The translations under genes and the position numbers were made by a program. From Boothiomyces macroporosus (taxonomy: Eukaryota > Chytridiomycota > Chytridiomycetes > Rhizophydiales > Terramycetaceae), in contig JADGKB010000001.1 of NCBI GenBank assembly GCA_027604185.1, positions 186,001-250,000 of the forward strand: a stretch of 64,000 bases of DNA, read 5' to 3'. Positions 1 through 64,000 of the stretch are shown here, piece after piece (position 1 is the stretch's first letter; the number at the start of each line of letters is the position of its first letter). The notes under the pieces were generated by a model, which saw nothing but the letters and a program-made list of their open reading frames with translations, did not search any database and had not been told where the DNA came from.

Positions 1-821
1 GCATGTAGGAAATCTTTTCAAAGCTGTACTTTCCTTTAGAGTTCTTTAAATATGAATTGATTTCTGCTCTGAACTTTGCCATGGCGTCGATTTGAATTTC
101 ATCAGAGAAGCCAAAGTGTGGAATTGCCAACGACTTTGTCATGGATTTAAACATTGCTTTTTGAATTGGAGTGAGTGCTTTTGTAATGTCCTGTCCAACA
201 GATGCAGTTTTAGCTGGAGATCAATATCAGTTTACCTGGGACAGAAGCTGGAGAAGCCTGTTCACCATTAACAAACGCCAAGATATCCCCCTTCAATATA
301 CGACCTTGCGGGCCGGTTCCTGTTACTTGACGGATATCAATGTTGTTTTCCTTTGCAATTCTACGAACGGCAGGAGTGGCAAAGGTTTGTTTATCAGTTA
401 AATCTGTCCTCACGACTGGAGCTTCTGGAGCAGCAGCTGTAGGTGATGCAGAAGCTTTTGTAGCCGGCTTTTCAGGTTGAGCTTGAGTTTCCACGGCGTC
501 ATCAGTTTCAATATCTACCAAAGGAGCTCCAACCTTGGCAATTCCACCAACTTCATGGTAGAGCTTTAAAATCTTTCCTTCATAACGAGAAGAAATTTCA
601 ACAGCTGCTTTATCTGATTGGACTTCACAAATTTTACTGAATTCTTCCACTGTATCGCCCGGTTTAACAAACCTAACATTACTTTAAGCGTACCATTGGA
701 TTAACTCTACCTCAGAAATACCTTCGCCGATATCAGCCAAGTTGAATGGAGTGATCGCATAACAGTGGCGAGAAGTGAAGAAAGATCGTTTTGGCGCTAG
801 TCGAATGATTCCCCTGAGCAT
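1..821 (-). CDS. DBT: Branched-chain alpha-keto acid dehydrogenase E2 (dihydrolipoyl transacylase), 3' part missing
   Basis: Mitochondrial acyltransferase core of the BCKDH complex (valine, leucine and isoleucine breakdown); the gene runs off the window edge. The start at 821 opens a basic, Arg/Phe-rich presequence (MLRGIIRLAPKRSFF). The lipoyl domain follows (DIGEGISEVELIQW) with the lipoylated Lys in QSDKAAVE near residue 64, then an Ala/Pro linker, then the E3-binding domain (ATPAVRRIAKE...GRILKGD) at about 140-178. The catalytic domain begins with LTPIQKAMFKSM and IPHFGFSDE, which separates BCKDH E2 from pyruvate and oxoglutarate E2. Introns at 673-693 (21 nt) and 214-235 (22 nt). Family assignment is firm; the catalytic HxxxD motif lies outside the window. 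Confidence 0.93.
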
Positions 822-966
822 ATTAATTTTTTTGAAAAATTGCAGATGTGACCAGTGGGGCAACTGTGACCTGGTGATGCCAAAACACCATTTAAAAGGA
901 AAGTGCATGACCACTTTGAAAGAGAACTTGCAATTAAATGAAAACTAGACGGAAACACAATTCTAT

Positions 967-1873
967 TTATGCATTCACACTAAGGCTAAAAACATTGTGT
1001 CCCTTTTCGTTTCTGATTCGAAGCTCTTTTACAGAATGGCAAACCACCCCAGCTTCAACTCCATACTCACTCCTTACAGTTAGTGAAATGTACCTGTGGA
1101 TCAAGTGCGGATCCGATTCTACACACAAGTGGTTGCCGGTTTGGATATGAGTCAATATTCCTTCATCTCCAGGATTCACTACTTTGAATTCCATTTCCAT
1201 TCTGTAGTTATAGTCTGGCCATTCAAACTTCCTACAATTATCACCAATTACCATAGACAGTCGTGGGTTTTGTTGAATGAGAAAAATACCTGCTGAGCAC
1301 GGCTACTCCAAGTGTGAGTGTAAAACGACTTTACAGTAGATGTCAAATACAGCTACCATTAATTAGAATTACAGGTTTCGATACTTGAGGCAGCATGACT
1401 TTGATGTAAAAGTTTTCTCCCCATCTTACCCTTTTGTCTTGTTCATCTAAATACGCTCTCTCTAACTGAAAAGTTGCTCTGGCGCGTCCTTCTCGAGGAT
1501 CTTGACCACTGGAAACTGAAACCTCATGGGTGTCTTGTTCGTTTAGACTTGGAAAGGCAATAGATGGAACAATTGCCAAGTAACCATTCATTTTTTTGGA
1601 CTAGGTCAATTATCACGTACTCCAATCATAATATTTTCTCCATACAATAATTCCTTTGATATTTCCGTCTGATTTAAAAATGAAATACCCTGGAATTAGC
1701 TAGTGATATTCTTTTATCCTGCTTACTCGACTCTCCCTCTCCATTTTCAATCTTTGCCAGAAATTCTTTGAGCATTTCCTACTGTCAAAAACGATTACTT
1801 CGCGAAGAATGGTTTCTTCGCACCAATTGCCTGATCTCTTTGACACTTTCTTTGGAATCTTTGTAGTATACAT
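967..1873 (-). CDS. CFAP161: Cilia- and flagella-associated protein CFAP161
   Basis: Axonemal microtubule inner protein of motile flagella. The spliced protein is 261 aa, close to the 301 aa of human CFAP161 (C15orf26). Motifs in order: SGNWCEETILREE at the N-terminus, LLYGENIMI, RWGENFYIK, KPLYLTS, a Trp/Pro-rich segment FEWPDYNYRMEMEF, TGNHLCVES, and the C-terminal EYGVEAGVVCHSV; all align in order with the animal protein. Six introns: 1779-1798, 1669-1688, 1601-1620, 1353-1372, 1232-1251 and 1073-1093 (five of 20 nt, one of 21). Without splicing only two short disconnected ORFs are visible. It lies head-to-tail with another flagellar gene at 1908-2837, both reading leftward. Confidence 0.9.
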
Positions 1874-1907
1874 GAGCGTTCTTCAAATTACGTAACTTTA
1901 TTGACAA

Positions 1908-2837
1908 TTATTTTTTGGGCTTTCCTCCAGCTTTCTTTTTCTCGTCCTCTTTTAATTTTTGATTGGCCATTTCCTCTTGGGCTGTAATCTTTTGAGAGAC
2001 GGTAGCTTTAATTTCATCCAATTTGGTGGACAATACCGAAGTGATGTACGACTTTAACTCATTAACGGCCGCTTCGTGTTTTGGTGATTTGAAAGGCAGC
2101 TCTTCCTCAGGCACTACTACGTCTTGAAGGACTTCCTGTGGAGCAACAAATTCTTCTGACTGTTCCACATCAACAGGCTCTTCGTCTTCTTGAGGCGACT
2201 CTTCGACGTCAGGCTGCTACTATTAAACATGGAATACTTCTTGTACTTGTTCTTCCTCTTCTTCCTGGAATATATTCTCGCTCTTGACAGGCATAAAGTT
2301 TTCAATTACAAACTCAACTTTCATCTTCTTTGTAAAGGCATACTTGTACAATAAATAATGGCGAAAATATCTATCATTAGGTAATTATACGTGTTTGTTA
2401 CATAGTCGACTATGGCCAGCATTTCTTTGTACGAGAATATCTTTTCGCTAATTGGTGGACGATTAATAGAATGTTTCAACACCAAGTCTTTGAAATATCC
2501 ATAATCTCTTGCCCAGTTTATATCAGAATATGCTACATTAGCATTTCTTACAAGTAACATAACTGTTTGTATCCTTTACAATTGAAAAAAAGACTGATGT
2601 TTGTTCTTCTTGCAAACGGGCCTTCTTTGCGAATCTAGTCAATTCATTATTACTCTATCGTGTAGTAGTACAAATCTCGCAATATGATTGACCTTTCATC
2701 ATTCCCCAATCCAAAGTGAAAATTAATGAAATCTAGAGCTTCAGATTTATCTTTTAGAGAAACGTAATCTTCAATTTGACTGGCGGTTAAATCTCTCCAG
2801 AGTAGCGATTCAGCCTGAATTACTTTTATATTACCAT
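1908..2837 (-). CDS. CFAP119: Flagellar central-pair C1a-32-like protein (CLAMP family)
   Basis: Predicted central-apparatus C1a projection component. The spliced protein is 276 aa. The core has the family pattern SINRPPISEKIFSYKEMLAI, then DYVTNTYFRHYLLYKYAFT, then KVEFVIENF; the tail is acidic and then Lys-rich. Five introns: 2815-2834, 2635-2653, 2533-2551, 2371-2390 and 2217-2237 (19-21 nt). The first intron begins directly after the ATG, so the initiator codon forms a 3-nt coding exon. The frame between residues 1 and 130 depends on that splice and on the 19-nt introns. The symbol CFAP119 (CCDC189) is given from recall of the family; C1a-32/CLAMP membership is the firmer statement. Confidence 0.82.
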
Positions 2838-3287: not shown

Positions 3288-5543
3288 ATGTTCAAGAGAG
3301 CACTATATGCTCTGAAGCCCAGGAAATTAATTATTCCTGGACTGAATCAGCAAGCAAAGCAATTTCATATTACCCCATCAGTATTCAACAAAGTCCCAAA
3401 AGGATTCGAAGAGTTTTTCAGAAATCCAGATTCCAAGAAGGACAGAGAATCACAGAAACCAAAGAAACCAGTTGAAGACGACGAAGAACCAGAACCGCCT
3501 AGAAAAAAGAAACCCAAGAAGGATAGCGAGCAAGAATTCTTTTTCAAAATTGATTTAAATGCAAATAATATTATAATTTACGGGATTCCAATCGCATATT
3601 TGCTATACTTGATTTATTCCGAAGGTAATATTAGCAAGGAAATATCATGGAACGATTTCAGAAACAACATGCTGGAAAAAGGTTTGGTGGATAAATTGGT
3701 GGTAGCGAATCGCTCAATAGTTCGAATTTATTTGACTCCTGGTGCTCCTCAAATGGCTGGGCATACTGGGAGAAGTGCCTTTTACTTTACAATCGGAAGT
3801 GTGGAAAGCTTTGAACACAACTTGGAGATGGCCCAACGGGAAATGAATATCCCTTCGAACCAAAGAGTTCCGGTATCTTATTCCAATGAAACCAGCATTG
3901 GAAATATCTTGTTGAATGTTGCACCAACGTTAATGCTGATTGGTGTTCTTGTTTGGCTGTCGAGAAAGGCAACTTCTGGAGCAGCTGGAGGACCGGGCGG
4001 GGTGTTCAATATTGGTAAATCTAAAGCAAAAATGTACAACCAAGAAACAGATATTCAAGTTAAATTTAAGGATGTTGCGGGAATGGATGAAGCCAAGCAA
4101 GAAATTATGGAATTCGTAAAGTTCCTCAAAGACCCTGGATATTTTGAACGACTCGGAGCCAAAATTCCAAAAGGTGCAATTTTGTCTGGTCCGCCTGGAA
4201 CTGGTTAGTGGTATTTAATTTAGGTAAAACTTTGTTGGCAAAAGCAACCGCTGGCGAAGCTGGGGTTCCATTTTTTTCAGTATCTGGGTCAGAATTTGTG
4301 GAAATGTTTGTTGGTGTTGGTTCCTCCAGAGTAAGAGACTTGTTTGCAAATGCGAAAAAGAACTCTCCATGTATCGTTTTTATCGATGAAATTGATGCGA
4401 TCGGAAAGGCAAGAGGAAAAGGAGGACAAATGGGAGGTAACGATGAAAGAGAAAGTACTTTGAACCAGCTGTTGGTTGAAATGGATGGATTCAGTGTTAG
4501 AGAGCACGTGGTTGTTCTAGCTGGTACAAATCGTCCAGATGTCCTGGATGCAGCTTTACTACGCCCAGGAAGATTTGATAGACATATTGCAATTGATCTG
4601 CCTGACATTAAGGGAAGAGTGGACATTTTCAAAGTCCATTTAAAAGTGATCAAAACTGATGAAGATCGTGATCAACTTGCTAAAAGACTTGCTGCTCTCA
4701 CACCAGGATTTTCCGGAGCAGATGTTGCAAACGTATGTAACGAAGCTGCATTGATTGGTGCTCGTTATGAAGCTGCATCAGTAACTCTGGCTCACTTTGA
4801 AGCGGCAATTGAACGTGTTATTGCTGGTTTGGAAAAGAAAAGCAGAGTTTTGTCCCCAGAAGAAAAGAAAATTGTAAGTCAGCATTTAATATCAGGTTGC
4901 TCATCATGAGGCTGGCCATGCTGTTGCAGGGTGGTTCTTGGAGCATGCTCATCCGCTCTTGAAAGTTTCAATCATCCCTCGTGGTGTTGGCGCTCTCGGA
5001 TATGCACAATATTTGCCAAAGGAAGACTATTTACAATCAACCTCTCAAATGCTGGATATGATGTGTATGACTCTTGGGGGTCGTGTCGCTGAACAAATCT
5101 TTTTCAACTCTATTACAACCGGTGCACAAGATGATTTGCAAAAAGTTACTAGATCTGCATATGCTCAAGTTGCTACATATGGTATGACTGACGCCCTTGG
5201 TAACATTTCATATGGTAGAGTAGATCAGCAAGAGCAAAATTTCCAAAAGCCATATTCTGAATCGACAGCCAAGCTAATGGATGATGAAGTACGTAATATT
5301 ATCGCGAAAGCATATGAACGAACCTTTAACCTTTTAACTGAAAAGAAGGATGCTGTTGAAAAAGTTGCAATGCTTTTATTGGAAAGGGAAGTAATTGGGA
5401 GAGATGACATGATTCGCCTCTTGGGGCCAAGGTAATTCGAAATTAATAGTAGGCCATTCCCAGAGTCTGGAAATTATGTCGAGTATCTTGGCGATGGTAA
5501 TATACACAGACTCCCAGATGTCACTCCAGAAACTAAATTGTAA
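3288..5543 (+). CDS. AFG3: Mitochondrial m-AAA protease subunit (Afg3/Yta12, FtsH family)
   Basis: Inner-membrane ATP-dependent metalloprotease for quality control and processing. 731 aa after splicing, near Yta10/AFG3L2 length. Basic presequence, then a Lys/Glu/Pro-rich linker, a membrane segment near residues 86-105, an intermembrane-space domain, and a second membrane segment near 203-224. The AAA module has Walker A GPPGTGKT (about 300-307) and Walker [13 protein letters not shown]; the zinc site HEAGH is at 526-530. Introns: 4204-4223 (20 nt, inside Walker A), 4874-4895 (22 nt, just before HEAGH) and 5432-5449 (18 nt, just before the C-terminal RPFPE). All catalytic residues are present. 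Confidence 0.96.
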
Positions 5544-6276: not shown

Positions 6277-6969
6277 ATGGATTTAAAAAAGATTGTGAAT
6301 TCAGACGAAGACGAATATTATCCTCTGATACCGATAAAAACAGAAGTGGTATCTACGAATCACACCACCCCTATAATAATGAAAGAATGTCTATGGGGAA
6401 AACCTCATTGTGCTCAGCTGTTTCCTGACGATCAAGCGTTATTCGATCATGTCAACCAAGTTCACATTGGACGCAAAAAGACGGACAATTTATGCTTGTC
6501 ATGTCATTGGGGAAACTGCAACGTAGTTTGCACAAAGAGAGACCATATTACCTCACATATCAAAGTGCATATCCCAGTTAAACCTTACAAGTGCAAGGTA
6601 TCTTTGCCCTAATAGTAGAAATGTACTAGATGTTTTAAGAGAGCGCAAGACCTGACAAAGCATCAGAAAACCCACGAGGAGCTACCAATAGAAAAGGAAA
6701 AACCAACACACAAGCGATCGATATCGATATTTTCAGCAGTTTCATCAGACACCACTGTTTCTTCTGTGATACCAGATGGATACATGTCGGATCCTGGAAT
6801 AGGAATAGAAGATGTCATCAAAGTCCAGAAAGAAGATGATATATGGTGCGCAAAGCCTTTGGCCCACAAGCGAAAGAGAAATATAGTGTCCGAATTGACT
6901 TACAAGATGAAATCCAGGCGATTGGAAAAATCTATACACTTAAAAGAGTCGCCTAGAACTAACTTGTAA
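6277..6969 (+). CDS. pacC: Short PacC/Rim101-type C2H2 zinc-finger transcription factor
   Basis: DNA-binding regulator of the fungal ambient-pH family. Three linked fingers fill about residues 35-130: a first finger with [10 protein letters not shown], a second with [14 protein letters not shown] followed by [12 protein letters not shown], and a third with [21 protein letters not shown]. The linker [11 protein letters not shown] and KRDHITSHI are hallmark PacC residues. A 21-nt intron (6598-6618) splits the third finger. The protein is 223 aa; ascomycete PacC is about three times longer, so the long C-terminal inhibitory and processing region is missing. The remaining tail is Ser/Thr-rich, then Lys/Arg-rich. 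Possibly active without proteolysis (inference). Confidence 0.85.
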
Positions 6970-7746: not shown

Positions 7747-10065
7747 TTAGATATCAAAGATTGATTTCTCCTTGGCGAGTTGAGCAGCTTTCCAGTCAAT
7801 GAAATTCTTTAGTGAAACCAATGCCCAATGCTTCCCATGAGTCATCACACAAAGCCCAGTCTCTTCATCCAATACTTTAATCCCATACTGTGGATTATTG
7901 TGATCTGCAGCACTATTCCTCAATATCTGAACTTCTACTACAATATCTTCCGCATTGGCAGGATCATAAACTATTAATGAATCTAAAATTAGGAAAAGGT
8001 ACTATGGGCAGTTATCGCAACAACAAAATGAATTCCTTCTGTAGTAAAAACATAGTCCACCATACATGCATAATCATCACTTTTGAAAAACTTTGATAAA
8101 ATATTGGATTTCGTAGGTGTCAAATCTTTTCTTCTAAAGTTACGGTCTAGAGGAAATATCCATGGTTTCGAAACACACTTTAAATTCTCATTTTGATATA
8201 TTCGCACATAACCGTCACTGCTTCCGACGAGTAACTGAGTCTGGGATCTAGTGTAACTGTACATTTCCATTATGGAGGTAATTGGATAATATTTATGTTG
8301 AATCTGTAGTGCTTGCACTTTTTCTAATGTTAACTCTTCATCAGGCTCTATGGGTTCTGGCTCCTTTTCTATTTTTTCAATCTACCATTAACAATACAAA
8401 CTTCAAGGCACCAGATGAGTTTTCCTGGTAAATACTGTTTTTCTGGGACTGCAGATTTTGTGTCCTCTTGTTTCAAGTCATTCAGCATATTGGATGACTC
8501 TGTTTTTTGCGGGATCTCGTCTCGCTGATACATAAATCTAACCACTATTCCTTGAGCTGTTCCAATTAGCAAACAATTGAATGTAGTATCGTACCCGTAC
8601 GATGTCACTAGTGATTCCTCTAAAATTATTGTTATGTACCAGCTGGTCTAACAGTTTCTTTCTTATTTGCTTGAAGCTGCTCTTTATTCACGTATCTAGT
8701 ACACCTATCATGCATAGTCAATCTTATCATGTCGCATTTGCATGTCCACTCAACTTCAAAATTCAATCGAATTCCTTGCACAACATGCTCCCCAAATTTC
8801 GTAGTAATTTCCATCACAATCAACGGTGTTTGATCTGCCAGATAGTAGAAATAAGCTAGATGGATTGGCTGGCATGACATTGGCTGTGATATGCGAATTT
8901 GACATTTGCAGCTGGATACTTTTGTAAAGATATTGTATGCAAATAGAATTTCCAACAATCCGCATTCGCCATTTGATGTACTGTAAAAGTAAACTGCTCG
9001 GTATTCTACGAGGGGGGCTTCCATCAGTGAGAGGGTTTCCATTGCTTGTAATTCTTCCGGTGTGCAGTTCATTTTTGCAGCAGCTTTCTCGAGTAGCAGC
9101 TCATGTGTCAAAATTGATCTATTCCTTTTTGGTAGAGAATCATCATTGGCATTTGAACTTTCGGTATTGTTCTTGTGTTTTTTCGTTGAATGGCTCATCT
9201 CGTCATTGCTAACCATTTTTGAAGCTCGTGAAATAATGTTGGACTTTGCTTTTGGTGGATACTCTGTTTTCAATATACCAGGTAAATAGTTGCGCATATC
9301 TGCAATATTTTTAATGTAATCATGCTCATCTTCAAAATTTTGCTTGTAAAGTTCCGTAATGTATATAATTGGAGATCCAGGAATTTCAAATGCTATCATT
9401 AGTATAGTTTACATTCTGAAATGTAATTGTCATCGTCTTTGGCGCCTTCAGCAAAGTTCAAATGCCAAATCTCCAAAGTGTTCGACTTTGTGAATACTGC
9501 AAACGCATTTTCTGTCAAACAGGAACAAAGAAGCAAGTTACCAAACGGCGAAAATGAATGTCTGAGAAATTTCGGTCCAGCTTTATGAGTTTCGATCTAC
9601 CTTTGTTAATTTCTCTCTTCCTGTCATACCATTCTTTAGTTTTAGAAATCTTTTTCTGGAGGATATCTGCGTTAGTTTGTTCGGATATTTTCTCCAGTCA
9701 ATTCAAATATACCTTATCCGATGTCTGTGCTTCTTTCAATGATTTTATTCGCTCCAGCTCTTCCTTTGAATTTTGAATCAAGTCTTCAACAGTAACGGGA
9801 TCATCTGCTAATCCTTTCAATCCTGGATAGACATTCAACCTCTTTCGGTATTGTATATGGTCTTTATATTTCTTTTCGGCACCCTTTATCAATCCAAGAA
9901 TACTTCAATCGCGACTTTCAATCGAGCTATTTCGGATTTGATTTTGGCATCCTCGTTTTGTTGTGTAACGGAATTGCTTTGCTTCTTTGGTGTCTGTGGG
10001 AGTTGGAATTGATTAGCTTTGAACCTCATATCTAAAACGCGAAAAAAGGTCCGCTCATCAAACAT
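7747..10065 (-). CDS. WD40-type protein with N-terminal coiled coil (unassigned)
   Basis: 725 aa from the ATG at 10065. The N-terminal ~190 residues are charged and helical (AEKKYKDHIQYRKRLN, LIQNSKEELERIKSLKEAQ, KEWYDRKREINK). WD40-like strands follow (FSPFGNLLLCSC, FTKSNTLEIWHLNF, LLIGTAQGIVVRF, LLVGSSDGYVRIYQNE, SLIVYDPANAED). Coiled coil before WD40 repeats occurs in several ciliary and scaffold proteins, but no family signature is clear. Introns: 9884-9903, 9692-9712, 9581-9600, 9393-9412, 8620-8639, 8382-8401 and 7983-8002 (20-21 nt). The frame stays open upstream of 10065 (GFTSEILQSPKNSKHP), and an in-frame ATG at 10216 could join through a 55-nt intron, so the true start may be further right. 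Confidence 0.65.
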
Positions 10066-11864: not shown

Positions 11865-11873
11865 AATAAAACT

Positions 11874-22187: not shown

Positions 22188-22354
22188 TAATAATATATCG
22201 AGATCCTAGTGATTTAACGTTTGAGAACCATATTAAATAGGGGTCGAATATCTCCGACAATAGCCCTGCTGCTCGTCTGTGGGTCTTGCACAGATCAGCA
22301 AACTACAACTCGACACCGACATCTTTTGTAGATTTCACCTCTTCTCTATATTGA

Positions 22355-32557: not shown

Positions 32558-33303
<746 letters not shown>

Positions 33304-49048: not shown

Positions 49049-49921
49049 ATGGAGATGTCTCACAATTTCCCGCATCTTACCCTTCCTCCTATCCAACTGC
49101 ATCAGCAACCCCAGTCTCTCCAATTAGCACCCATCTTACCATCAAAGCCGGTCCAATCCCAGTCAGAACCATCTCCAATTACAGGTTATCAACGCGAATT
49201 AACTGATAGATCCTCAAGCCAAAGCTGTGTTAAAGGAAAAAATGCTGCAGGTTTTACAACCTGAATCTTTGGAACAGAAGGAAAAGTATTTGGATTTAAT
49301 ATTAGAAATTACGAACTGCAGCTTGAACAGTATCACAAGGAAATCAAAGATATCCAAGCAGGTAAATCCATCTCATGTAGGTGCTCATCCAGAATTAAAA
49401 AATTCAATCGAGCTGTTGGAAATCGAATATAATGAAGCTTTACTGGAAGCTGAAGTCTTAAAGAAATATCAACTGGAATGCTCGCAAAAAGTGTATGAAT
49501 TAGAGCGGGACTTGTGCATCCAAGAGTACAGGGTAAGCGGTATTTGACAAGGCGGAACATGAGGGATTGCAAGAAGAGATGCTAGAGCAACTGGAAGCCA
49601 GAAAACGTAAATTAAAAGAAGATCGAGAATCTTTTGACTTGGGAAATGGTAAATATCTGCTGATTTAGATGGTTCGATAGACACCTTCAAACCAGCTACC
49701 CGCAAAACTACACGGAACGGAAGCAAGCTCGAAGAGCGAAAAGAAAAGAGAAGAAAACCGCAAATTCAAGCGACTATTAATCTATTATTGAAGGACAATG
49801 AAGTTATAGATGATTTAAATTTAATTAGAAAAGTAAGAATTTTTAACCGTAGCATACAGGCGTGGCATCCAGAATTCAGAAACCTGCCACTAGTAATTCT
49901 GCAAAGATGGTAAAGAAGTGA
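49049..49921 (+). CDS. SDS3: Sds3/BRMS1-family histone deacetylase complex subunit
   Basis: Predicted scaffold of the Sin3-Rpd3L deacetylase complex. 249 aa. Pro/Gln-rich N-terminus, then the Sds3 core: KNYELQLEQYHKEI, AGAHPELKNSIELLEIEY (family motif GTHPE), then a long coiled coil (EVLKKYQLECSQKVYELE, GLQEEMLEQLEARKRKLKE) and a basic tail with LLKDNEVIDDLNLIRK. Six introns: 49185-49209 (25 nt, longest of the standard class), 49286-49305, 49362-49380, 49533-49551, 49649-49668 and 49833-49852. The match is hidden until introns are removed. Confidence 0.85.
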
Positions 49922-50049
49922 ACGTGTATAGGAAATAAAATGGTTGGATATAAGTTTACGTTGCTCCGAATTTTCCATGATGTCCAATCAGCTAAACGGA
50001 ATTTCCCTGAGGTTCGTTCGATTGCATCGAATAATGATGGACTGATTGC

Positions 50050-53606: not shown

Positions 53607-54502
53607 TTATTTAGATTCCTTAGTAACAGACTTTTTCTTCTTTTTCTTTTCAGGAGAAGACTCGACGTCGGTCTTTGAAGGAGTTGCCTTTATCTTGTCC
53701 TTTGAATCGGCAATTGGCTTCCCAGTCAACTTTGGAGTTGCCTTGGCATCTTTCTTTTCGACCTTCTTTTCAGTCTTTGGTTCAGGTTTCTTTTCAGTCT
53801 TCTTGTCGGCCTTTGGTTCAGGTTTCTTTTCAACTTTGGTCTTCTTTACAGGAGGTTCTGGGACGGCTTCTTCCTCAGAATTTTCTTCACTTTCCTATAA
53901 TTAGCACAGATTAACCTCATCTTCATGTTCTTCGATTTCTTCAACTTCATCGTCGTCATCGGAATCATCACTACATTAGGAATGGCATACCCAGGTGGTA
54001 ACACTACTGCTGACGATCCTTGGAGTTTTGCTTTGTACACTTTCATTTCTTGATTGTATTTTTGCTTCAATTCCTCTGCTTGCTCTGCATATTCCTAAAT
54101 CAGCCAATACGTACAGCTTTGGTCTTTTCGTCCAACTCTCTCCATCTTCTACCAATCTCAGTGACTTCAAGCGGTTTGTCTCCTGGATTGGTTTCCTTGT
54201 ATTCAGATCTTTGGTCTCTCACAAATATCATGTAGGATGATAGCGCTATCATTAGATGTTTAGTATACGTTGCTTTGGGGCGTCTGGATCTCTTGGACGT
54301 TTTTTTGAAGCGTGCTTCTTGGAGTGTTCAGAGTCTTCGAACGCTCCTGGAACTGCATTTTTGAAGAATTGCTCCAGGCCCTTAATTCCTTCAGATAGCG
54401 CTTTCACAGCTTCGATGAGCTACGCTTTAGATTGCACAATACCTGGTGACCATCTTCAGAGTCTAGGAACTTTAATGTTGCTGCATTTTTTGGTGGAGTC
54501 AT
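53607..54502 (-). CDS. HMG-box protein with acidic and Lys-rich tail (Nhp6/Hmo1-like)
   Basis: 262 aa. A short helical N-terminus (LIEAVKALSEGIKGLEQFF) is followed by KKRPRDPDAPKQPLSSYMIF, which opens a single HMG box with DKPLEVTEIGRRWRELDEKTK and KYNQEMKVYKAKL. Then an Asp/Glu run and a long Lys/Glu/Pro tail with repeats of KKPEPK and TEKK. DNA-bending chromatin protein by family. Five introns: 54420-54442 and 54246-54268 (23 nt), 54095-54114, 53971-53990 and 53895-53915. The tail has H1-like composition. Nhp6 or Hmo1 equivalence is not settled. Confidence 0.82.
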
Positions 54503-54687
54503 ACCTTTTGTTGAAGAAAATGGCCGAGGGAAGAGAAAAAATGGCTCCACAACCACCCTCAACTTGTCTGCGCCAATCAAAACCGCCCAAGGTGCTCCCC
54601 CCTCACCCTTTGAAAACGCCCCAACCTGGAGCAAAAATTCAAATTCCAGCGGTGGACAAATTCTGTCTAGGTAAATGAGGCTGTTTA

Positions 54688-56893
54688 TTAATAACTTCTT
54701 CCCCATAAAGTGTAGCTGAGAGCCTTCTGTCCACAAGCGAAACACTTGGTGTTTGCGTTGACACCATCTTCAGGTTGCTTGAAAGGAATACACAAGGTTT
54801 TGGCTCCCATAGAAGGTGCCTTTTCATCTTGTTCAGTTCCATCATCACTAAAGTTAACAGTCAATTACGTTCTTGCGGATCTTTCCTTAACATCCTTTTC
54901 ACATTCTACTCTTTCGCACCATGGTGATAGGATGATATTCTTATTGTTCAACGTTTCAACAAAGTTGTCCCAGGTTTCTAATCTAACCAAATGTTCGTCA
55001 CGCTCTTTCTTTGCTTTTTGGAACATATCTTCTTGGATGGTCTCCAACAAATTGAAGATTGTTTCTCCAATATTTTCAAGAGACAATTGCACCTTCTCAC
55101 CAGTATCTCTACGAACAGATTTGGCTTCTCCCTTGGCTATATCTTTTGGCCCGACTTCAAGACGGATTGGTACACCCTAAGGTTAAAAAAAAGTACTCTC
55201 AACTCCCAATGGTTGAACTTGAATCCAGGAGTGTAGTTGTCACGCATATCAGAATGAACTTTAATTCCAGCCTTCTTCAAAGTGTTGTGAAGTTTAGCAC
55301 ACTCATCGTACACCTTGTTCTTTTCTTCGGCAGAAGCCTTTGCTGGGATACCACTTGGAACAATCACCACTTGAATTTTGGCAACTCTTGGAGGCATTAC
55401 AAGACCTTTGTTGTCACCGTGAACCATGACCATAGCGCCGATACTTCTTGTAGAAAGACCCCAAGAGTTTTGCCAAACAAACGATCTTTCTTTGTTTTCA
55501 TTGTCAACAATAATTTCAAACATTTTTGAAAAGTTTTGGCCAAGTTGGTGAGATGTAGCACCTTGAATAGCACGACCAGTTGTTGGAATGAATCCTTCAA
55601 CAGTAGTTGTGTAGTTACCACCAGCAAACTTTTCATTTTCTGACTTTCTACCAGGAACAACTGGAACAGCAAGCAATTCTTCATAAACTCTTCTATATAA
55701 TTCGAGAATTTCCAAAACTTCCTTGTCAGCTTCAGCTTCAGTGGCAAAAGCAGTATGACCTTCCTGCCATAAAAATTCACGAGTTCTCAAGAATGGTTGT
55801 GGGTGTTTGAATTCCCAACGAACAACGCTGCACCATTGGTTTAATCTCAATGGCAAATCTCTGTGACTTCTAATCCAGGTTGCATAGTATGGATACATGG
55901 CAGTTTCCGAAGTTGGACGAATAGCAATTGGTTCAGCCATTTCAGATTGCCCACTGTTGATTAATAAAAGCTTACGCTCTGGTTACCCATGCGACTTCAG
56001 GGGAAAATCCTTCAATGTGATCTTTTTCCTTGTTCAATTTCCCTTCAGTGATAAACATTGGGAAATAGCAGTCTTCTACTCCAAGCTCTTCAATTTCGCT
56101 TCCAAAGAACTGTTGAATTTTCTTCCAAACGGCAAATGCATTAGGACGGATAATGTAACATCCAGATACGTCGTAATAGTCCAGCATCTCAGTTTTGGTC
56201 AAAACTTGCTCATACCATTTTGGAAAGTTTTCTTCCTTGGTGACAGTTAAACCAATAATGACTTGAGATTCTACGTTAAAACCAACAAACCCTCAGTCTT
56301 TTCTGCTTCCTTGGTTTTCTTTGCTTTTGGTGAACTTTGAGCGGCAGCTGGTGCAGTCAAATTGTTAAAGTCGACTGCTTGGTATTCTCCAGCATGCGCA
56401 TCCAAAAACTTTTTAAATCCATCTGACTTGACAAACAATGTTTCGGTTGCAGAGAAATTGCGGAATCCAAGATTTAGTGCACCATTGTTGATAATGTTTT
56501 CATCCACAACGACTGTAACGGTGGATTTATCCTCAACATTTGCAATAGAAAATGGAGTCACTACTATTAACATCAAATACAGTTCAATTTGTCGATTCCA
56601 AATGAAGAGGAAACAATGTCATCTGCTGCCATTCTGGCATCTTTATAGCCAAGTGACTTTGCTACATTTCCTACTGAAAAGGTTGCAGTTGATAATGAGA
56701 CTACCATGATGAGGTTATTGTTTGGTCCTTTTGATGGCTTCAATACTAGTGTTTTTACAGGGCCGACATCTGATTTGAGGGATTGAACTGTTTCTACCCA
56801 GGCGTTGAATGAATCAACTTCGCTATGACTGCTTACGCTAACTGATACTGAAAGAGATTTTAAAGTCTTGGCCACGCCCTCTTGATTAGACAT
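54688..56893 (-). CDS. Cytosolic prolyl-tRNA synthetase with N-terminal editing-like domain
   Basis: 700 aa. The N-terminal ~190 residues ([31 protein letters not shown]) are a YbaK/ProX-like domain, as in yeast and protist ProRS. A Lys/Glu linker precedes the class II core: motif region [62 protein letters not shown], then the anticodon-binding domain and the eukaryotic zinc-binding tail ([27 protein letters not shown]). Introns: 56561-56580, 56271-56290, 55954-55975, 55177-55196 and 54848-54868. Not fused to GluRS, unlike in animals. Confidence 0.95.
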
Positions 56894-57109
56894 TTGGTTT
56901 TGAAAAATTTTCAACTGCTTTTAGATTTTTTTCTCACTCTAAAGACTCACCCAAATCATCCTTTGCAGCTGATGCCATTCCCATCATACATTCGTTATCC
57001 TAATTCGCCATCGATGCGGTGGGTATGGATAACTTGCGGTTGAATTGTGGCCGTTTTTGAGTGATAGAAGAGCACCTAAAAATACGAATTATCATGCTTT
57101 ATATTGATA

Positions 57110-58111
57110 TTATAATACATGCTGACGAATATATCCTGCCAGGAAGTCAAACACTACCAATAGAATACCACCACCTATATTTAGATAATATTTACCTGGT
57201 CCCAATCTTAGCACCTTTGGAACAAATCCTTTATAAAGAGCACCTGCACCTTCTTCCTTGATGATGGTTCTAATGGCTGGAACAGCCCAATTGTATTTAT
57301 ATGGGGCGCTGATTTGAGATTGAACTCTGGTTTTTACAACATCAAATGGAGTATTCAATATTGTTCCGACTGTTCCACCAATAGTTCCGGCAATAAAGTT
57401 GTTTAATAATTTACCTTGTTTTGAGTCAGCTTTTGGAAGAGCTGCACGAACAAAACTAATAACACCAAAATATCCCATATTCCACACACCATGTCTCCAG
57501 ACAGTAGCTTCAATACCGCGACCAAATCCATAGAGCCCTTCAGTTTGCCAGATTTTGGCGGCTACATCAGATCTAGGTTTAGTGAATATCCTACGTGCTC
57601 TTGTACAAGTGTGCATTGCGCTTATCTTGCATTCTAATTTTGATTAAATCTGGGGTTGAAACAATGACAGCTTCAGTCATTCCAGCACTGGAACCAGTCA
57701 ACATGGAAAACAAAATACCATCTTTAAACCCAAACTTTTCCTTGTACAAATGACTGTACTGGAATTAACAAAAATTACTTGATCATTGGCACCAAATTTG
57801 ATTGCTCTCTTTGGAGCTTCCACAAAGATTGGAGGGAGGATACCACGGTACAATGACCCAAATCTGAATTAAATTATTGATACCCTTCATTCTTTACCAT
57901 TTTTTGGAAGCAATCAAGAATAGAAGAATATTCCGCTTGCCCAACTTGAATTTGGAATCTAGTTTTTACCACTGGGGTTAATTATGAATACCATCAAGCG
58001 GATACATTGTCAGAATTTCAGACACACCAGCAACGGCACCACAGAACAATGAGTATTTGAATGGAAGAGGCTTTTCTTCTGATGATTAGCGAATTACTTG
58101 CCTTTGGACAT
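57110..58111 (-). CDS. ODC1: Mitochondrial 2-oxodicarboxylate carrier (Odc1/SLC25A21 type)
   Basis: 291 aa SLC25 carrier exchanging 2-oxoadipate and 2-oxoglutarate (lysine metabolism). Three PX[DE] repeats: MYPLDVVKTRFQ, STPDLIKIRMQ and TPFDVVKTRVQ, each with its membrane helices. WRHGVWNMGYFG and GFVPKVLRLGPGGGILL are characteristic of Odc carriers. Six introns: 58079-58101 (23 nt, starting GCAAGT), 57972-57991, 57864-57883, 57759-57778, 57573-57594 and 57175-57195. The GC-AG intron follows four codons; a GT donor four bases later would put the rest out of frame. Confidence 0.93.
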
Positions 58112-58234
58112 TTTGGGAAAATTAAATTGTGAGGCTTGTGAAAAATATTCTGCAATTTCAAGGGATCCGGAGAGTGATGATCTTGTCCAGTTAGTTCAAA
58201 CAAAAAGCCAATAGCTGGATTTACCACATTTTTA

Positions 58235-60899
58235 TTAATTTCTCAAGAAATATTTATTTCCTGCCCTTTGTCGGATAACCTCAACCTTTGAGTCGCACTT
58301 GGTTGGCTTTCGTTTCTAGAGTAAAACACAACTTACCTTGCTTCTCGTATTCAAAAACGGAACATCGTTAGTCACCGAAACAGCTTCAACAGTTTGAGAT
58401 ATGTTACTGTCAATTCTATCCCGGTTGATTTTTCGTGAATGCCGGCCCCGAGGCAATTTTCCTTTACCTTTTCCTGTCAATAGTGATTCAACAATTGGAG
58501 ATGTAGGAACATAATCATACTGATCATCTTCAGATTCGCTAAACTGCAGCATCCCAGCAAAGCTTATTTTGGGTAGCGAAGCATCTTGAGGGGTTTTCGA
58601 AGGAGTTCTTTTGGGAGTTTTCGTAGGGGTCTTGATTGTAGGTTTTTTCACAAGTTCCGAGTACTCGTAGTCTGTTTCAAAGTCCGAGTTCCAGGCGGGA
58701 AGGATTTCTTGATTTAACGTGGTACTTCGCTGAGGTTTACCTTTTCTAACTTTTCTTTGCTTTGGAGAATTCAGTTTTTCTTTAAATATTTGTACAGGAG
58801 ATTTAGGCGAATATTGAGATAATTCCATTTCATACCTAACCGGCGAAAAGGTTTTAGTTGGTGACTTTACTGGAGAAATGAATTGCGAAAAGGACACTCT
58901 CTTGTTTGGGGAGATTTCGGGAGACACAGTCGGCTTTTCAGGTGATTCAATTTCGAATATATCATCAAATGTGATTTCAGTTGGTTCTTGCTTTGGAATA
59001 ACTTCTGGTGCTGATTGTTCTGCGGGGCATTCAACAGAACATCCCACATATTCGTAATGAGTTTTGACAGCACCAATCAGATACAGTTCATCCCATGCAG
59101 CTACAATGAGATACCACGGAATATGGGGAAACACTATTGGCGTCATGTCCTTGAATCTAACTCCGTATTGATTAATTCCATTTTTAAGAAGCATTTTTTC
59201 GTTGACTGTCATAGGTTTGAAGGGTAAAAGGTAGAAATCTTTGATAAAATTAAATGATTTAGATCTACGACGGACATTATTGATTCGCTGTCTAATTTGA
59301 TTGATCGGCTTTGCTGGCAAGTAGTGGATGTGTATAGAAGTAATATCCTGTAAACCAAAATTAATCAGTCCATTATAAAGCAAAACATCTTCACTTGGTA
59401 GGAATTCTCTTATTCTACTTCGATTTGTTGGGATAATTTTGGGGTATAGTGCCTTGTCTAAACAGTAACAACGTAAAATTTCGTCTCCTTTTTCTGAAAA
59501 CTGTAATGCATCCTTGATTTTCTTTTCTGAAGTGTTGTAATCTTTTATAAACTCAGGCTTTGGGATAATTTCACATTCATAAACACTGGGAAGATGTTGG
59601 ATTGCAGCAATATTAAATACTGAATTTTCCCCCGCTATAGTCAATCCAACTTCTCGCTGTCGAGCAAGATTGTTCTAAATTAAAATTAGGTACCAGCTGC
59701 TCTTTCCAAAAAGATTTCTCATCTTGGCTCCCGAGTTCAGATTCTATTACATAATTTTGAAGGGTAAGTTGAAACATTTGCTGCATTTGGTCCTTTAGCT
59801 CTTGAATTTGATTATTACTAAAACATTTGGAACTGTCGAATACCCAGTCGATCTGATGATTTGGTTTCAAAAGTACATCATACGTTTTTTCTTTTAAAGT
59901 GTCATTGAACAGATCTTCAAATTCCTCATCTAGAGTTAAATCCTATTTACGGGGGATATCAGGGTCCTCATTTAATATTGCATTTTGAGTTTCTTCTATA
60001 GGGTAAAGTTGATCGGAAAACAGAGACTCGAGATAAATATTTGGGCGGTTTTCAGGCTTTTCTTTCGTATATACAAGTAAATCGCTTTGAGGAGGGATAC
60101 CTGGATCTTGAATAGGTTTAATTAGTGCAGGCGGATTTTGAGAACCTGCAACTTGATTGGATGGTTCAATATCTAAAAGGGGAGATGTAGAGTCTAGCAA
60201 ATTTGGTGTCCCAGTATTCACTGGATACTTTTGGAGAGGAGACCCTGTATTTAGACCATTATATTCCTTGTTATTACTTGGTTTAACTTTTGTTGCAGAA
60301 GGAATAGAAGGAGGAGTAGCAGATTCTCTAAATCGCCTCATTAAAGTAGTTTCTTTTCGTTTTGTTTCCCCTGACGATTCTGGATTGGGTTGAGCAGGTA
60401 AATCTATTTTTTTTTGGTAAACTGCCGACGGTAGTTGAGGGAAATTTAGTGGGCAGCTAGCTGTAGTAAATGGCGAGTCACGAACTAATCCAAATACTGG
60501 TGATGATGCCAATTTCGGTTTCTTTCTTCCTTTTGGAGATTTTTTCACTTTCTGTTTGATGGAAGTGCTGCTTTTCCTTACTGGAGATCTAATTGGAGCT
60601 GGTTTCGATATACTTGAAGGTACTGCATCCGTTTCTGATTGATCCATATTGCTGGTGAGCACTTTTAATGGCTCAACGGGAGAAGACATTGCTTTTTTCC
60701 GCTTCTTTGCTGGCTTTGGGAGGATTGAAATGTTCTTTGGAGGGGACCGATACCCTCTTAGTTTTAGCTGTTCATATCGTTCATGACAGTCTTTTGCGTC
60801 CGATCCAGGTATACAGGTTGCAATTCTTCCCCAGGATTTATTGTATTTAACCACTGCATCCATTAATATATGCTCTTTCAGAGCTGTCCACTGAAACAT
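58235..60899 (-). CDS. Large SANT/Myb-domain nuclear protein
   Basis: 867 aa. An N-terminal SANT domain (WTALKEHILMDAVVKYNKSW, GRIATCIPGSDAKDCHERYE) precedes ~330 residues of Ser/Pro/Lys disordered sequence with many SP and TP sites, a helical block (IQELKDQMQQMFQLTLQN), a conserved-looking central domain with REFLPSEDVLLYNGLINFGL and MTVNEKMLLKNGINQYG (two SANT-like helices, as in GON4L-type proteins), then more SP/TP-rich sequence. Introns: 59930-59950, 59675-59693 and 58316-58336; the last adds the terminal 26 codons. Probably a chromatin or transcription factor; GON4L or CRAMP1 relatives are candidates, not proven. Confidence 0.7.
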
Positions 60900-61171: not shown

Positions 61172-62322
61172 ATGTCAAGTAGTGATGACTCTGAACAAAC
61201 AAAGCTGGAAGTACAACTTGAAATATCAAACTTTCAACGAGATTTCCCAAACTGCCCCTACAAGATGATTGAGAAAATAGGACAAGGGACGTTTTCATCG
61301 GTATACAAGGCTGTAGATACTCAGCATCAGCACACAAGTGATTGCGGGGAAGAATGCAATATAGTCGCAGTAAAAAGGATATACCCAACGAGCAGCCCAA
61401 CCAGGATTCTGACAGAGCTTTCGATATTACATTCTTTATCTGGACACCCAAATATTGCACCGCTACTAAACGCAATACGGCACGATGATCAAGTAATCGC
61501 TGTCTTGCCATACTATCCCCATGCCAATTTCAAAGTATATATGTTTAACTCAGCATTATTTTCGGGAACTGTCGAATAATCAAACCAAATCCTATTTGAG
61601 ATCACTGTTGTCAGCCTTGAAGCATGTACATCACAAAGGATACATTCATCGTGATGTGAAACCAAGTAACTTTATCTTTTCTCCAGAAAAGGAAGCTGGT
61701 GTGTTGATTGACTTTGGCCTTGCACAGGTAATCCATTGATAACCAGACTGAAGCAGATAAAAGGGACGATTCCAAGTTCAAACAACCGAAACCAATCAAG
61801 CTTGAAAAAAGACGGCCGTTTTATATAGTGGGTAGGATTTGTTTAATTTAGATGATAAAAGGCCGTCAATAAGAGCCAACAGAGCTGGAACTAGAGGGTT
61901 TAGAGGTAAATTCCCGTTAAAACAGCTCCGGAAGTATTATTCAAGGTAATTCATCAGACAAGGGCGATAGATATTTGGTCAGTTGGCGTAATTCTGTTGT
62001 CTATTTTGACGGGTCAGTTTCCCTTCTTCCAATCTACAGATGATGTAGAAGCTATGTTGGAAATCTCACATATATTTGGTAAACAGAAAATGAAACAGTT
62101 GGCATGCACTCTTAGTAATTACTTACTAACTTGGATCGTTCATTTGAAACTAATATCCCTACAATAGGAAAAGAAATTGGTCTAAGGCATATCGTTGACA
62201 AAATGAGTGAAAACCCAGTTGATGAGGAAGCTCTGGATTTGCTCGAAAAACTGTTAGAATTAGATCCTTCTAAACGGATTACGGCAAGTGAAGCATTACA
62301 CCATACTTATCTCCAGCAATAA
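61172..62322 (+). CDS. CDC7: Cdc7-type protein kinase (DDK catalytic subunit)
   Basis: S-phase kinase that phosphorylates MCM to fire origins. 350 aa. Gly-rich loop IGQGTFSSVYKA, Lys in NIVAVKRI, catalytic HRDVKPSNF, LIDFGLAQ, then a short kinase insert and RAGTRGFRAPEVLFK, SVGVILLSILTGQFPFF, and NRSFETNIPTI typical of fungal Cdc7. The usual large inserts are much reduced. Introns: 61535-61553, 61728-61746, 61832-61851, 61906-61925 and 62115-62134. The last is odd: frame and homology need its removal, but it ends in GG instead of AG. Otherwise the gene is intact. Confidence 0.9.
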
Positions 62323-62501
62323 TATCAAATTAATAAAATAGTCCAACTAGACATTAAATCTTTCTAGCTGCTAAAGAACTAGTTTTGTTGATCTAGTGAG
62401 ATATTTGGGAAGGATTGCGATCAGAGCACATTGTCTATCTATAAATACTGGGTTTCCGAGACATACCGTGACTTGACTTTTTAAATCAGAAATTGTTGGA
62501 A

Positions 62502-63431
62502 ATGCAACCTCAAGATACTGTCGGCTTTATCGGATTAGGAAATATGGGAAGTGCTATGGCGGCTAATCTCATGCAAGGTAAGTACAGCATAACCAAGGGA
62601 TTGCACCAAAACCGCTCCACATTTGGAACAGAACAAAATCCAAGGCAGATGAATTAGTTAAACAAGGCGCTGTTTGGATGAATTCAATTCAAGAATTGGG
62701 AAAGAAATGTAACATTATTATTTGCGTTGCATTTGACGATGCTGCCTTGAGGCAGATTATTTGCAAAGTGATTGAAGGAGGACCTCAACCAGGAACAATC
62801 TTTGCCAGTTGCTCAACGATCCATCCGGATACTACCAAAGAACTTGTTCCATTGGCTTTGAAGCATGGTGTTCACTTTATGGGAACACCAGTCTTTGGAA
62901 GGTAATAATAACTAACATAGACCCGATGCAGCGGCGAATAAGATGCTTGTTATGGTACTAGCAGGTCACCCAGAGGCTAAAAAGACTATTTCTCCTTATT
63001 TGATGACTATGGGAAAAGGAATTCTTGACTCTGGCGATGAAGCCCATTTGGCAAACGTTCAGAAACTTGTAGGCAACTTTTTTGTGTCGGCACTCATCGA
63101 ATTAAGTGCCGAAGCCCAAACCTTGGCAGAAAAGAATGGATTAAACAGAGAAAAGGTGGTAGAATTTGTCGATATGATGTTCCCAATCCGCACTTTTCAA
63201 GTTTACAATCGCATCATTGCCGATGAAGATTTTAGCCAAGGATTCAGCGTATCTGGCGGTTTAAAAGATGTTGGATTGATTCGGGATATAGCCCAAAAGA
63301 CAGGAACAAAAGTCCCGATTGCCGATATCACTTTTGATCACTTGTCCAAAGTTGGCCCTGAAGATAAAGACAAGGACTGGGCAGTCTTGTCAAATATCGT
63401 AAAGAAAGAGTCAAATTTGCCGACAAAATAA
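62502..63431 (+). CDS. Beta-hydroxyacid dehydrogenase (3-hydroxyisobutyrate dehydrogenase/GLYR1-like)
   Basis: 296 aa NAD(P)-dependent dehydrogenase. The Rossmann start is VGFIGLGNMGSAMAANLMQ; the substrate-side motif is FMGTPVFGRPDAAANK, and the catalytic Lys lies in VQKLVGNFF. The all-helical C-terminal domain is complete. Introns: 62578-62597 and 62902-62920. The MGTPVFGRP variant is closer to the GLYR1/tartronate-semialdehyde-type branch of fungi than to mitochondrial HIBADH, and no presequence is seen, so a cytosolic enzyme with an unknown hydroxyacid substrate is more likely. Confidence 0.85.
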
Positions 63432-63459
63432 AAAAGGGTTTTTTGATCTAAATTTTTTA

Positions 63460-64000
63460 ATGCGAATTAAAGTCCAAGTCGATCTCAACTCGCCATTTAA
63501 ATCTTGGTACTCAATATCCGATAGATTTCGCAAATTCTCCTCGCTCTTGGACAGCCTCTCTGCCGACTTTGGATTTGATACAAAGGATATTTCAATGACA
63601 ATGGACGGCTTTGAATTGCCTTTATTTCTGGATCCATTCTCTATCCTAAAGGAAGATGATTTAATATTGTACTATTGTGAATTGATTTAGAATATCCAGA
63701 AAACGTAATGGAAAACGCAAGATTGACGATTCTTACGTTAACACAAAGAAACACAAGTCGGAGGAGATATTGGACACCAAAAAAGAACAGGAGAGTAGGA
63801 GTGATGCGGGTGAATCCGATGAAAGCTCAGATTCGTCAGAGAGTGCATCATCAGAATCTTCTAGTGATTCTGATTCTAGCAGTTCCTCTGAAACAGATAG
63901 TGACTCTAGCTCAGATGAATCGGAAGAAACTAAAGCGGCAGAAGCCGTATTAAAAGCCGTAGATCCAAAGTTGGTCAAGACGTTGCACAAGAACAAACGA
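63460..64000 (+). CDS. COIL: Coilin, N-terminal part (runs off window)
   Basis: Organiser of Cajal bodies, where snRNPs mature. 173 codons are visible, in frame to the window end. The N-terminal ubiquitin-like domain (MRIKVQVDLNSPFKSWYSI, LDSLSADFGFDTKDISM, DGFELPLFLDPFSILKEDD, LILISRKRNGKRK) matches coilin and is joined to the next part by a 22-nt intron (63669-63690). A long Ser/Asp/Glu tract then follows, as in coilin's central region. Only 28 bp separate it from the previous stop. The C-terminal Tudor-like domain lies outside. Confidence 0.8.

Follow-up and report, generated by a model that had tools for sequence, protein, structure and literature searches.

The window, a stretch of 64,000 nt from the chytrid Boothiomyces macroporosus, contains 117 introns of 19-23 nt among the 140 called, in 31 gene models. 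The earlier note had joined about 115 introns, which agrees with this count, and had placed them in more than 35 genes; our 31 models are a lower bound on the gene number, since several of them fuse neighbouring genes. Features rest on the gene model unless another basis is named. The first genes, all on the minus strand, are one cut by the window end, which we take to be dihydrolipoyl acyltransferase-like (1..821; introns 214-235, 673-693), a second at 967..1873 (introns 1232-1251, 1353-1372, 1601-1620, 1669-1688, 1779-1798) and a flagellar C1a-32/CLAMP-type gene, with its Pfam CLAMP match on an earlier, shorter model (1908..2837; introns 2217-2237, 2371-2390, 2533-2551, 2635-2653, 2815-2834). 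They are followed on the plus strand by an AFG3/FtsH-type AAA protease gene with AAA and M41 domains (3288..5543; introns 4204-4223, inside Walker A, 4874-4895 and 5432-5452) and a C2H2 zinc-finger gene supported by domain and gene model (6277..6969; intron 6598-6618). A further 27-nt call in the protease gene (5483-5509) was judged an artefact, and both domains came from the model lacking it. The next gene, presumably CFAP44-like, was defined by protein alignment (7747..10029, minus; introns 7983-8002, 8382-8401, 8620-8639, 9393-9412, 9581-9600, 9692-9712, 9884-9903); its ab initio model missed the 20-nt intron 8382-8401 and called wrong 17-nt and 30-nt segments.

The model at 10343..12216 (plus; introns 10379-10399, 10982-11003) is wrong in its 3' part and overlaps the next gene, which we assume to be eIF3a-like (11874..14791, minus; introns 12335-12356, 12814-12834, 14724-14745). 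Then come a gene that we regard as WD-repeat-like (14825..16226, plus; introns 15176-15196, 15487-15506, 15584-15604, 15725-15745, 15869-15888, 16056-16076), a gene at 18324..19457 (minus; introns 18534-18554, 18944-18964), a presumed alpha/beta-hydrolase-like gene (20207..21444, plus; introns 20601-20622, 20649-20667, 21027-21045, 21112-21131), and genes at 21475..22907 (plus; introns 21842-21861, 22565-22584, 22693-22712) and 23157..25358 (minus; introns 24587-24607, 25088-25108). The middle of the window holds what is presumably a P450-reductase fusion (27345..30985, plus; introns 27706-27725, 28114-28133, 28485-28503, 28681-28700, 29257-29278), genes on the minus strand at 31020..33303 (introns 31783-31802, 32429-32448, 32626-32644, 32770-32789, 32903-32922) and 33506..34752 (intron 33592-33611), a Tctex-type dynein light chain gene supported by alignment to a solved homologue (34869..35286, plus; introns 34938-34956, 34957-34975, 35100-35118, 35197-35215), and an electron transfer flavoprotein beta gene supported by model and homologue (35463..36309, minus; introns 35499-35518, 35694-35713, 35833-35851, 35981-35999, 36198-36216).

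A short plus-strand model (36440..36732; introns 36575-36594, 36697-36717) may belong to the leucine-rich-repeat gene after it, whose repeat was seen in an earlier model (36789..38457, plus; introns 36940-36958, 37076-37094, 37262-37281, 37429-37447, 37856-37874, 38199-38217). Beyond a gene at 38478..39741 (minus; introns 38872-38891, 39319-39338, 39435-39455) lie a gene taken to be aconitase-like (42007..44339, plus; introns 42557-42579, 43878-43899, 44069-44088), in which two 15-nt calls were judged artefacts, a gene at 45308..46316 (plus; intron 46037-46055) and a presumably sugar-nucleotide transporter-like gene (47535..48613, minus; introns 47618-47638, 47891-47912). The remainder comprises fused models at 49242..51331 (plus; introns 49286-49305, 49362-49380, 49533-49551, 49649-49668, 49833-49852, 50424-50442), a gene at 51351..53494 (minus; introns 52308-52328, 52422-52441, 52720-52740), several genes fused at 53607..60863 (minus; introns 53895-53915, 53971-53990, 54095-54114, 54246-54268, 54420-54442, 54848-54868, 55177-55196, 55954-55975, 56271-56290, 56561-56580, 57175-57195, 57573-57594, 57759-57778, 57864-57883, 57972-57991, 58076-58097, 58316-58336, 59675-59693, 59930-59950), fused models that we take to be a kinase and a dehydrogenase (61172..63431, plus; introns 61535-61553, 61666-61686, 61728-61746, 61832-61851, 61906-61925, 62578-62597, 62902-62920), and a model cut by the window end (63460..64000, plus; intron 63669-63690).

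The survey covered 308,222 bases, among them the window and 20 position-chosen stretches on 14 other contigs (a sample of 264 kb from a 15.2 Mb genome). The refined gene models, for which GT and AG were obligatory and AT donors disallowed, yielded 514 distinct introns, of which 437 formed a core class of 19-23 nt (105, 190, 101, 28 and 13 introns of 19, 20, 21, 22 and 23 nt, respectively), confirming the modal length of 20 given in the earlier note. This class made up 437 of the 482 introns of 30 nt or less and was present at all 21 position-chosen places, with 3 to 27 short introns per 10 kb in each of the 20 outside stretches, which extrapolates to about 22,800 in the genome. Ultra-short introns, under 25 nt, are thus dominant, genome-wide and narrow in spread, the features by which ultra-short intron genomes are recognised; with 32 of the 514 calls above 30 nt, they are not exclusive. 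The other 45 calls of 30 nt or less are mostly artefacts: in 29 the length is a multiple of three, and strict YTRAY occurs in 5, against 301 of the 437 core introns. Given these traits and the scarcity of 18-nt calls (only 9), the floor lies at 19 nt, so that the range of 18-23 nt proposed before stands except for its 18-nt class, which is not supported.

The peak did not depend on trained splice signals. A signal-free gene finder that knew nothing beyond GT, AG and codon statistics and weighted every length equally still placed 77 of 217 introns at 19-23 nt (76 of 217 with a minimum length of 8), whereas eleven decoy dinucleotide pairs gave 5-15 each in this range and 12-18 in their fullest 5-nt bin anywhere. 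In the signal-free set the branch motif was found in 45 of the 77 introns of 19-23 nt, against 33 of 140 at other lengths. Trained splice sites combined with flat lengths of 10-300 put 272 of 417 introns at 19-23 nt. Of 3104 decoys located within coding sequence, only 65 contained strict YTRAY, against the core frequency given above, a contrast that is partly circular because the acceptor matrix used in calling spans the motif; 136 core introns lack it, and a loose TNA is present in 435 of 437 core introns and also in 932 of 3104 decoys.

The introns begin and end as U2-type introns do, with GT-AG and an extended donor consensus. The commonest donors include GTAATT, GTAAAT, GTATTT and GTAAGT, bearing out the 5' ends GTAAT, GTAAG, GTATT and GTAC noted before; A at +3 occurs in 92% of core introns and G at +5 in only 21%. 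A U2-complementary branch site lies close to the 3' end: YTRAY emerged from an unsupervised motif search with its A in 97%, usually at nucleotide 14-15 and sometimes at 16-17. The TAAY or CTAAC placed earlier at 3-6 nt before the final YAG or AAG is present as a branch site, refined to YTRAY with its A 5-7 nt (mostly 5-6) before the last base. Adding the smallest common value of each spacer (14 + 5) gives the 19-nt floor. No pyrimidine tract stands between branch site and AG in the surveyed introns, as had been claimed; their interior is T-rich (43%).

Removal of the short introns restores the reading frame, as previously stated. At 16 of 16 places compared with solved homologues of five genes, holding 17 short introns, register is kept, at 15 of them with no gap within five residues. 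The spliced Tctex-type product (34869-35286, 113 aa) aligns gaplessly to Tctex-type 1 (8j07_l8), and Walker A is restored across 4204-4223, as reported earlier. The spliced product of the 7747-10029 gene matches the deposited protein HK103_000100, itself a gene prediction, at 713 of 713 residues, which marks the DNA as that of a chytrid fungus, most likely B. macroporosus. Aligning this protein to the DNA, free of any assumption about splicing or length, gave introns of 20, 21, 20, 20, 20, 20 and 20 nt, with a score of 3626 with or without a GT-AG requirement. HK103_000100 is deposited under Boothiomyces sp. JEL0866.

The genome appears to encode a major spliceosome, to judge from genes for U1 (68.8 bits, just under the Rfam cut-off of 69.5), U2 (twice) and U6 and for the proteins Prp8, SF1, U2AF65, Slu7, Prp18, Cwc25 and Isy1; of the losses suggested among U2AF, SF1 and U1/U2, none was seen for U1, U2, SF1 or U2AF65. 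An Rfam scan of the window itself matched no family of any kind. The recognition boxes are canonical (U1 ATACTTACCTG, U2 GTAGTA, U6 ACAGAG), U2AF65 has two RRMs and a C-terminal domain, Cwc25 starts MGGGDLNLKKSWHP with its GGG plug kept, and the splicing components, as far as checked, look ordinary. The N-terminus of Isy1 is degenerate both as modelled here and in the protein deposited for Boothiomyces, a reading that hangs on an uncertain gene start: the junctions nearest the start are ambiguous, and the two models disagree there. Kappamyces and Gorgonomyces show such degeneracy too, Globomyces in part, whereas the models deposited for five chytrids (Spizellomyces, Fimicolochytrium, Powellomyces, Chytriomyces and Polychytrium) start MARNEEKAQSMLYRFREAQ. 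This region may be a lead on the mechanism.

Taken together, the class dominance, the GT-AG ends, YTRAY and the U1, U2 and U6 genes make it very probable (about 0.92) that these segments are U2-type spliceosomal introns compressed genome-wide to 19-23 nt, the normal class of this fungus as the earlier note had proposed. Their removal would fall to the ordinary major spliceosome, acting by intron definition and forming a lariat loop of 14-15 nt. Such an intron could hardly accommodate U1 and U2 on its opposite ends simultaneously, so a hand-over would be the likely route: U1 contact would be brief or weak, in keeping with the rare +5 G, the 5' site would pass early to U6, and U2 would bind the adjoining branch site. 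Conjecturally, the degenerate N-terminus of Isy1, a branching factor, might make room for the tight loop. The usual gap between 5' site and branch is 13-14 nt, against tens of nt in human-extract assembly models (PMC6692369); the same source reports a minimal distance near 50 nt in human in vitro reactions and cites assembly abolished at 35, which would put the proposed reaction far outside that range.

A specially modified spliceosome, as proposed for Stentor, could permit the class instead of a general tolerance, which we consider somewhat doubtful. The apparently degenerate Isy1 N-terminus, a region reported as non-conserved in Stentor (PMC9505925), and the lack of a RED_N match in a search run without a positive control point this way. 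However, that account lists Slu7 and Prp18 as not found and the Cwc25 GGG as lost in Stentor, and all three are retained in Boothiomyces. It is improbable that the survey undercounts a sizeable further class of longer introns: a 46-nt Isy1 intron is backed by Globomyces and B. salamandrivorans orthologues and is in register with the human protein, and 7 of the 32 calls above 30 nt bear the branch motif, but the flat 10-300 run scattered 139 calls over 31-300 with no peak, and some long calls bridge separate genes (mitochondrial L24 and U2AF65 in L028). U12-type donors read (A/G)TATCCTT, and none is among the 25 commonest donor hexamers (AT donors being disallowed in calling). Removal by the minor spliceosome or by a tRNA-type or HAC1/XBP1-type ligase would accommodate a size under what human spliceosomes handle in vitro (PMC6692369), and is very improbable against U2-type donors, a branch site that fits U2, and U1, U2 and U6 genes. 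Sequencing or assembly errors, or coding sequence mis-called as introns, are a hardly credible explanation of the segments: the assembly may hold duplicated stretches (L034 and L035, on two contigs, are identical over 3111 nt), but errors would not bear GT, AG and a branch motif in constant position, recur at every sampled place, or coincide with the seven segments whose removal the JEL0866 protein demands when GT-AG ends are required.

Among published cases, the Bigelowiella natans nucleomorph, with 852 introns of 18-21 nt (PMC2222250, PMC10245619), shares the narrow ultra-short class; unlike that reduced endosymbiont nucleus, Boothiomyces would have it in a fungal nuclear genome. Stentor and other heterotrichs likewise show genome-wide tiny GT-AG introns, the commonest Stentor intron beginning GUAAU, as GTAATT does in Boothiomyces; in contrast to the 15-16 nt, branch A at 10-11 and weak branch consensus described there (PMC9505925), Boothiomyces has a longer range, a later A and a clear YTRAY. 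Mikrocytids (Mikrocytos mackini, with 224 predicted introns, and Paramikrocytos canceri) are also described with uniform introns, of 16-17 nt, and differ in being parasites with few introns and a spliceosome cut to 17-19 proteins (PMC10245619). The short uniform introns reported for Paramecium, Nyctotherus, dicyemids and Trichomonas type B are longer, about 23-26 nt; the account of dicyemids, opisthokonts like Boothiomyces, gives a mean of 26.2 nt for 16 introns, and that of Trichomonas vaginalis only 24 such introns. Cryptococcus neoformans is likewise an intron-rich fungus with compact introns, but their mean is given as 56 or 63 nt in two papers, and those below 40 nt are described as a small set spliced less well. 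No fungus with such ultra-short introns was found in the searched open-access literature. The mikrocytid paper draws its comparison between a vestigial nucleus, heterotrichs and reduced parasites (PMC10245619), so a chytrid, from a group near yeasts, could open a 14-nt lariat loop to experiment. Boothiomyces also exposes a blind spot, as a survey of over 3000 eukaryotic genomes is described as excluding every intron below 30 nt (PMC10639083).

A fuller reading, which we hold to be rather unlikely as a whole, would be that some twenty thousand introns of 19-23 nt arose independently in fungi with an otherwise ordinary major spliceosome, the enabling change being the small, local Isy1 degeneracy, in parallel with Stentor, and that the segment 34938-34975 is spliced sequentially, in a recursive manner. 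In this Tctex-type gene the twin introns 34938-34956 and 34957-34975 lie back to back, with zero exon between them.

The class of introns of 19–23 nt emerged from gene finding performed without splice-site matrices or length preference. Supplied only with codon statistics, start and stop codons and two dinucleotides, and with every intron length equally likely, the gene finder placed 77 of 217 introns at 19–23 nt (276,653 bases, permitted range 10–300 nt), and 76 of 217 when the minimum length was set to 8. Eleven decoy dinucleotide pairs gave 5–15 calls at 19–23 nt, and 12–18 in the fullest 5-nt bin anywhere. Once splice-site matrices, trained on the gene finder's own short calls, were added and lengths were still kept flat, 272 of 417 introns fell at 19–23 nt, with 139 calls scattered sparsely over 31–300 nt.

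Protein comparisons placed the same segments. Removal of seven introns of 20–21 nt from the gene at 7747–10029 (minus strand), which we take to be CFAP44-like, gave a protein identical to the deposited B. macroporosus HK103_000100 (713/713 residues), and alignment of HK103_000100 to the DNA, demanding neither splice dinucleotides nor any length, returned introns of 20, 21, 20, 20, 20, 20 and 20 nt. These seven introns are also those of the deposited model, and ultra-short introns are therefore implicit in the public annotation. The identity of this protein, together with the Isy1 match described below, assigns the DNA to a Boothiomyces (Rhizophydiales), most probably B. macroporosus. The orthologue from Boothiomyces sp. 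JEL0866 recovered the identical seven introns when GT-AG was required (without the requirement the second segment was 36 nt); the Globomyces orthologue recovered six of the seven when GT-AG was required, the seventh being 17 nt, and was noisy without it (twelve segments). In five spliced proteins, 16 of 16 junction places were in register with solved structures: ETF-beta (five introns); the Tctex-type dynein light chain (four introns occupying three places); U2AF65 (two introns in the displayed alignment); Slu7 (three introns, the homologue having two extra residues near one junction); and Isy1 (three ultra-short introns in the aligned part, apart from one of 46 nt, the last junction place lying close to the end of the alignment). 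The dynein light chain (113 residues) aligned full-length and gap-free to Tctex-type 1 (8j07_l8). From sequence, we infer that these introns are excised and that a lariat is formed.

The gene for this light chain (34869..35286, plus strand) carries at 34938–34975 two complete 19-nt introns that directly adjoin, without an intervening exon, and removal of both restores the 113-aa protein. Once the first has been removed, the joined ends again form a donor, and stepwise (recursive) splicing is therefore possible; a single 38-nt intron is possible as well.

The refined models contain 514 distinct introns in 308,222 bases, obtained, unlike both signal-free runs and the flat-length matrix run, in which there was no length preference, with a preference for 14–30 nt that was flat within that range. 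They include 105 introns of 19 nt, 190 of 20 nt, 101 of 21 nt, 28 of 22 nt and 13 of 23 nt, together with 45 further calls up to 30 nt and 32 longer ones; the window contributes 117 of the introns of 19–23 nt. The gene models come from a simple program, several merge neighbouring genes, and the 514 introns take in three splicing-factor loci and their flanks, picked by function and not by position. The position-chosen sample (264 kb) holds 396 introns of 19–23 nt in 136 models, or 2.06 per kb of coding sequence. If this sample is typical of the assembly (15.2 Mb, 216 contigs), extrapolation gives about 22,800 such introns in the genome. The 45 calls at 13–18 and 24–30 nt are probably false in the majority, because 29 of them are multiples of three and only 5 have a strict YTRAY; a few may be genuine. 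A 17-nt call in the CFAP44-like gene was shown by protein alignment to be a wrongly placed 20-nt intron.

In the introns of 19–23 nt the donor has A at +3 (92%), A at +4 (56%), T at +5 (43%, with G in only 21%) and T at +6 (56%), and its commonest form, GTAATT, is similar to the sequence with which the commonest Stentor intron begins (PMC9505925). The 5' end of U1 is canonical (ATACTTACCTG), and therefore, with G at +5 in 21%, about four fifths of the introns mispair with U1 at that position; the proposed mechanism would include a hand-over of the 5' site from U1 to U6. An unsupervised search returned the branch motif Y-T-R-A-Y, with A in 97%, the motif and the splice-site matrices having been trained on the same intron calls. 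A strong branch site is present in 301 introns, and 136 of the 437 lack one. In those 301, the branch A lies at nucleotide 14 (143 introns), 15 (125), 16 (24), 17 (8) or 12 (1), and the distance from it to the last base is 5 nt (169), 6 nt (120) or 7 nt (12). A branch A at 14 and an end 5 nt later are the smallest common spacers, so the 19-nt intron is 14 + 5. The intron interior is 43% T, and G+C is 29% in introns versus 40% in coding sequence.

The splicing parts checked are not reduced. The earlier note had suggested looking for losses of U2AF, SF1 and the U1/U2 snRNA genes; none was borne out for the parts checked, as SF1 and U2AF65 (two RRMs and the C-terminal domain) are encoded, and the U1 gene (68.8 bits, slightly below Rfam's 69.5), two U2 genes and U6 all have canonical boxes. 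The genome also encodes Prp8, Slu7, Prp18 and Isy1. Adaptation to the short distance between the branch site and the 3' end through loss of Slu7 or Prp18 is ruled out by the presence of both genes, and a Stentor-like loss of the Cwc25 glycine plug by a Cwc25 that retains its MGGG start. A search for RED, the human short-intron factor, gave no match and, having no working control, was uninformative; Rfam and tRNA scans of the window gave no matches. The two U2 genes, in stretches elsewhere in the assembly (L001 and L002; 142.2 and 135.4 bits), have the branch-recognition region in common and differ in the 3' half.

In other eukaryotes the Isy1 N-terminus reaches into the active site and contacts the intron backbone, and that of Stentor is non-conserved, according to the Stentor study (PMC9505925). 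The Boothiomyces Isy1 gene lies outside the window (1225–2104 of L037, another stretch of the assembly). Its protein, which has a match in a cluster bearing the label Boothiomyces sp. JEL0838, was aligned with 15 other proteins, hand-picked among 120 matches listed of 375. Within this selection, the N-terminus MARNEEKAQSMLYRFREAQ or a near variant was found in Spizellomyces, Fimicolochytrium, Powellomyces, Chytriomyces, Entophlyctis, Polychytrium and Dimargaris, and was partly kept in two animals; the Batrachochytrium and Geranomyces models begin within it, at MLYRFREAQ. It is half kept in Globomyces and degenerate in Boothiomyces, Kappamyces and Gorgonomyces. The first residues of the Boothiomyces protein are uncertain, because near its start codon the gene is interrupted either by a pair of neighbouring ultra-short introns, one base apart, or by one of about 40 nt; a 46-nt intron lies further downstream. 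With the gene start uncertain, the degenerate N-terminus is a lead that may offer a clue to the mechanism.

Ultra-short introns as a kind are already known. Published lengths are 18–21 nt in the Bigelowiella nucleomorph (PMC2222250, PMC10245619), 15–16 nt in heterotrichs (PMC9505925), 16–17 nt in mikrocytids (PMC10245619) and about 23–26 nt in Paramecium, dicyemids and Trichomonas; in Cryptococcus, a compact fungal case, the mean is 56 or 63 nt. Searches of open-access literature brought up no fungal introns near 20 nt, and one large intron survey left out introns below 30 nt (PMC10639083). The mikrocytid spliceosome is reduced, with 17–19 proteins identified (PMC10245619), whereas the Boothiomyces parts checked are not, and the Stentor survey lists Slu7 and Prp18 as not found (PMC9505925), whereas both are present in Boothiomyces. 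Within the literature searched, what appears to be new is that a fungus has an ultra-short class as its main one, along with a branch consensus that is clear and second-step factors that are present.

Several other loci were recorded. Two stretches on different contigs, L034 (C49) and L035 (C100), are identical across 3111 nt, and on C10, C20 and C65 other families give equal-scoring match pairs inside one contig; these are either recent duplications or assembly duplicates. At 16729–18296 (plus strand) there are two tandem secreted-protein genes without ultra-short introns, which we take to be Cu/Zn superoxide dismutase-like; the 62-nt intron that fuses them in the model is probably false. The gene at 27345–30985 (plus strand), with five ultra-short introns, presumably encodes a self-sufficient P450 with a fused reductase (CYP505-like).
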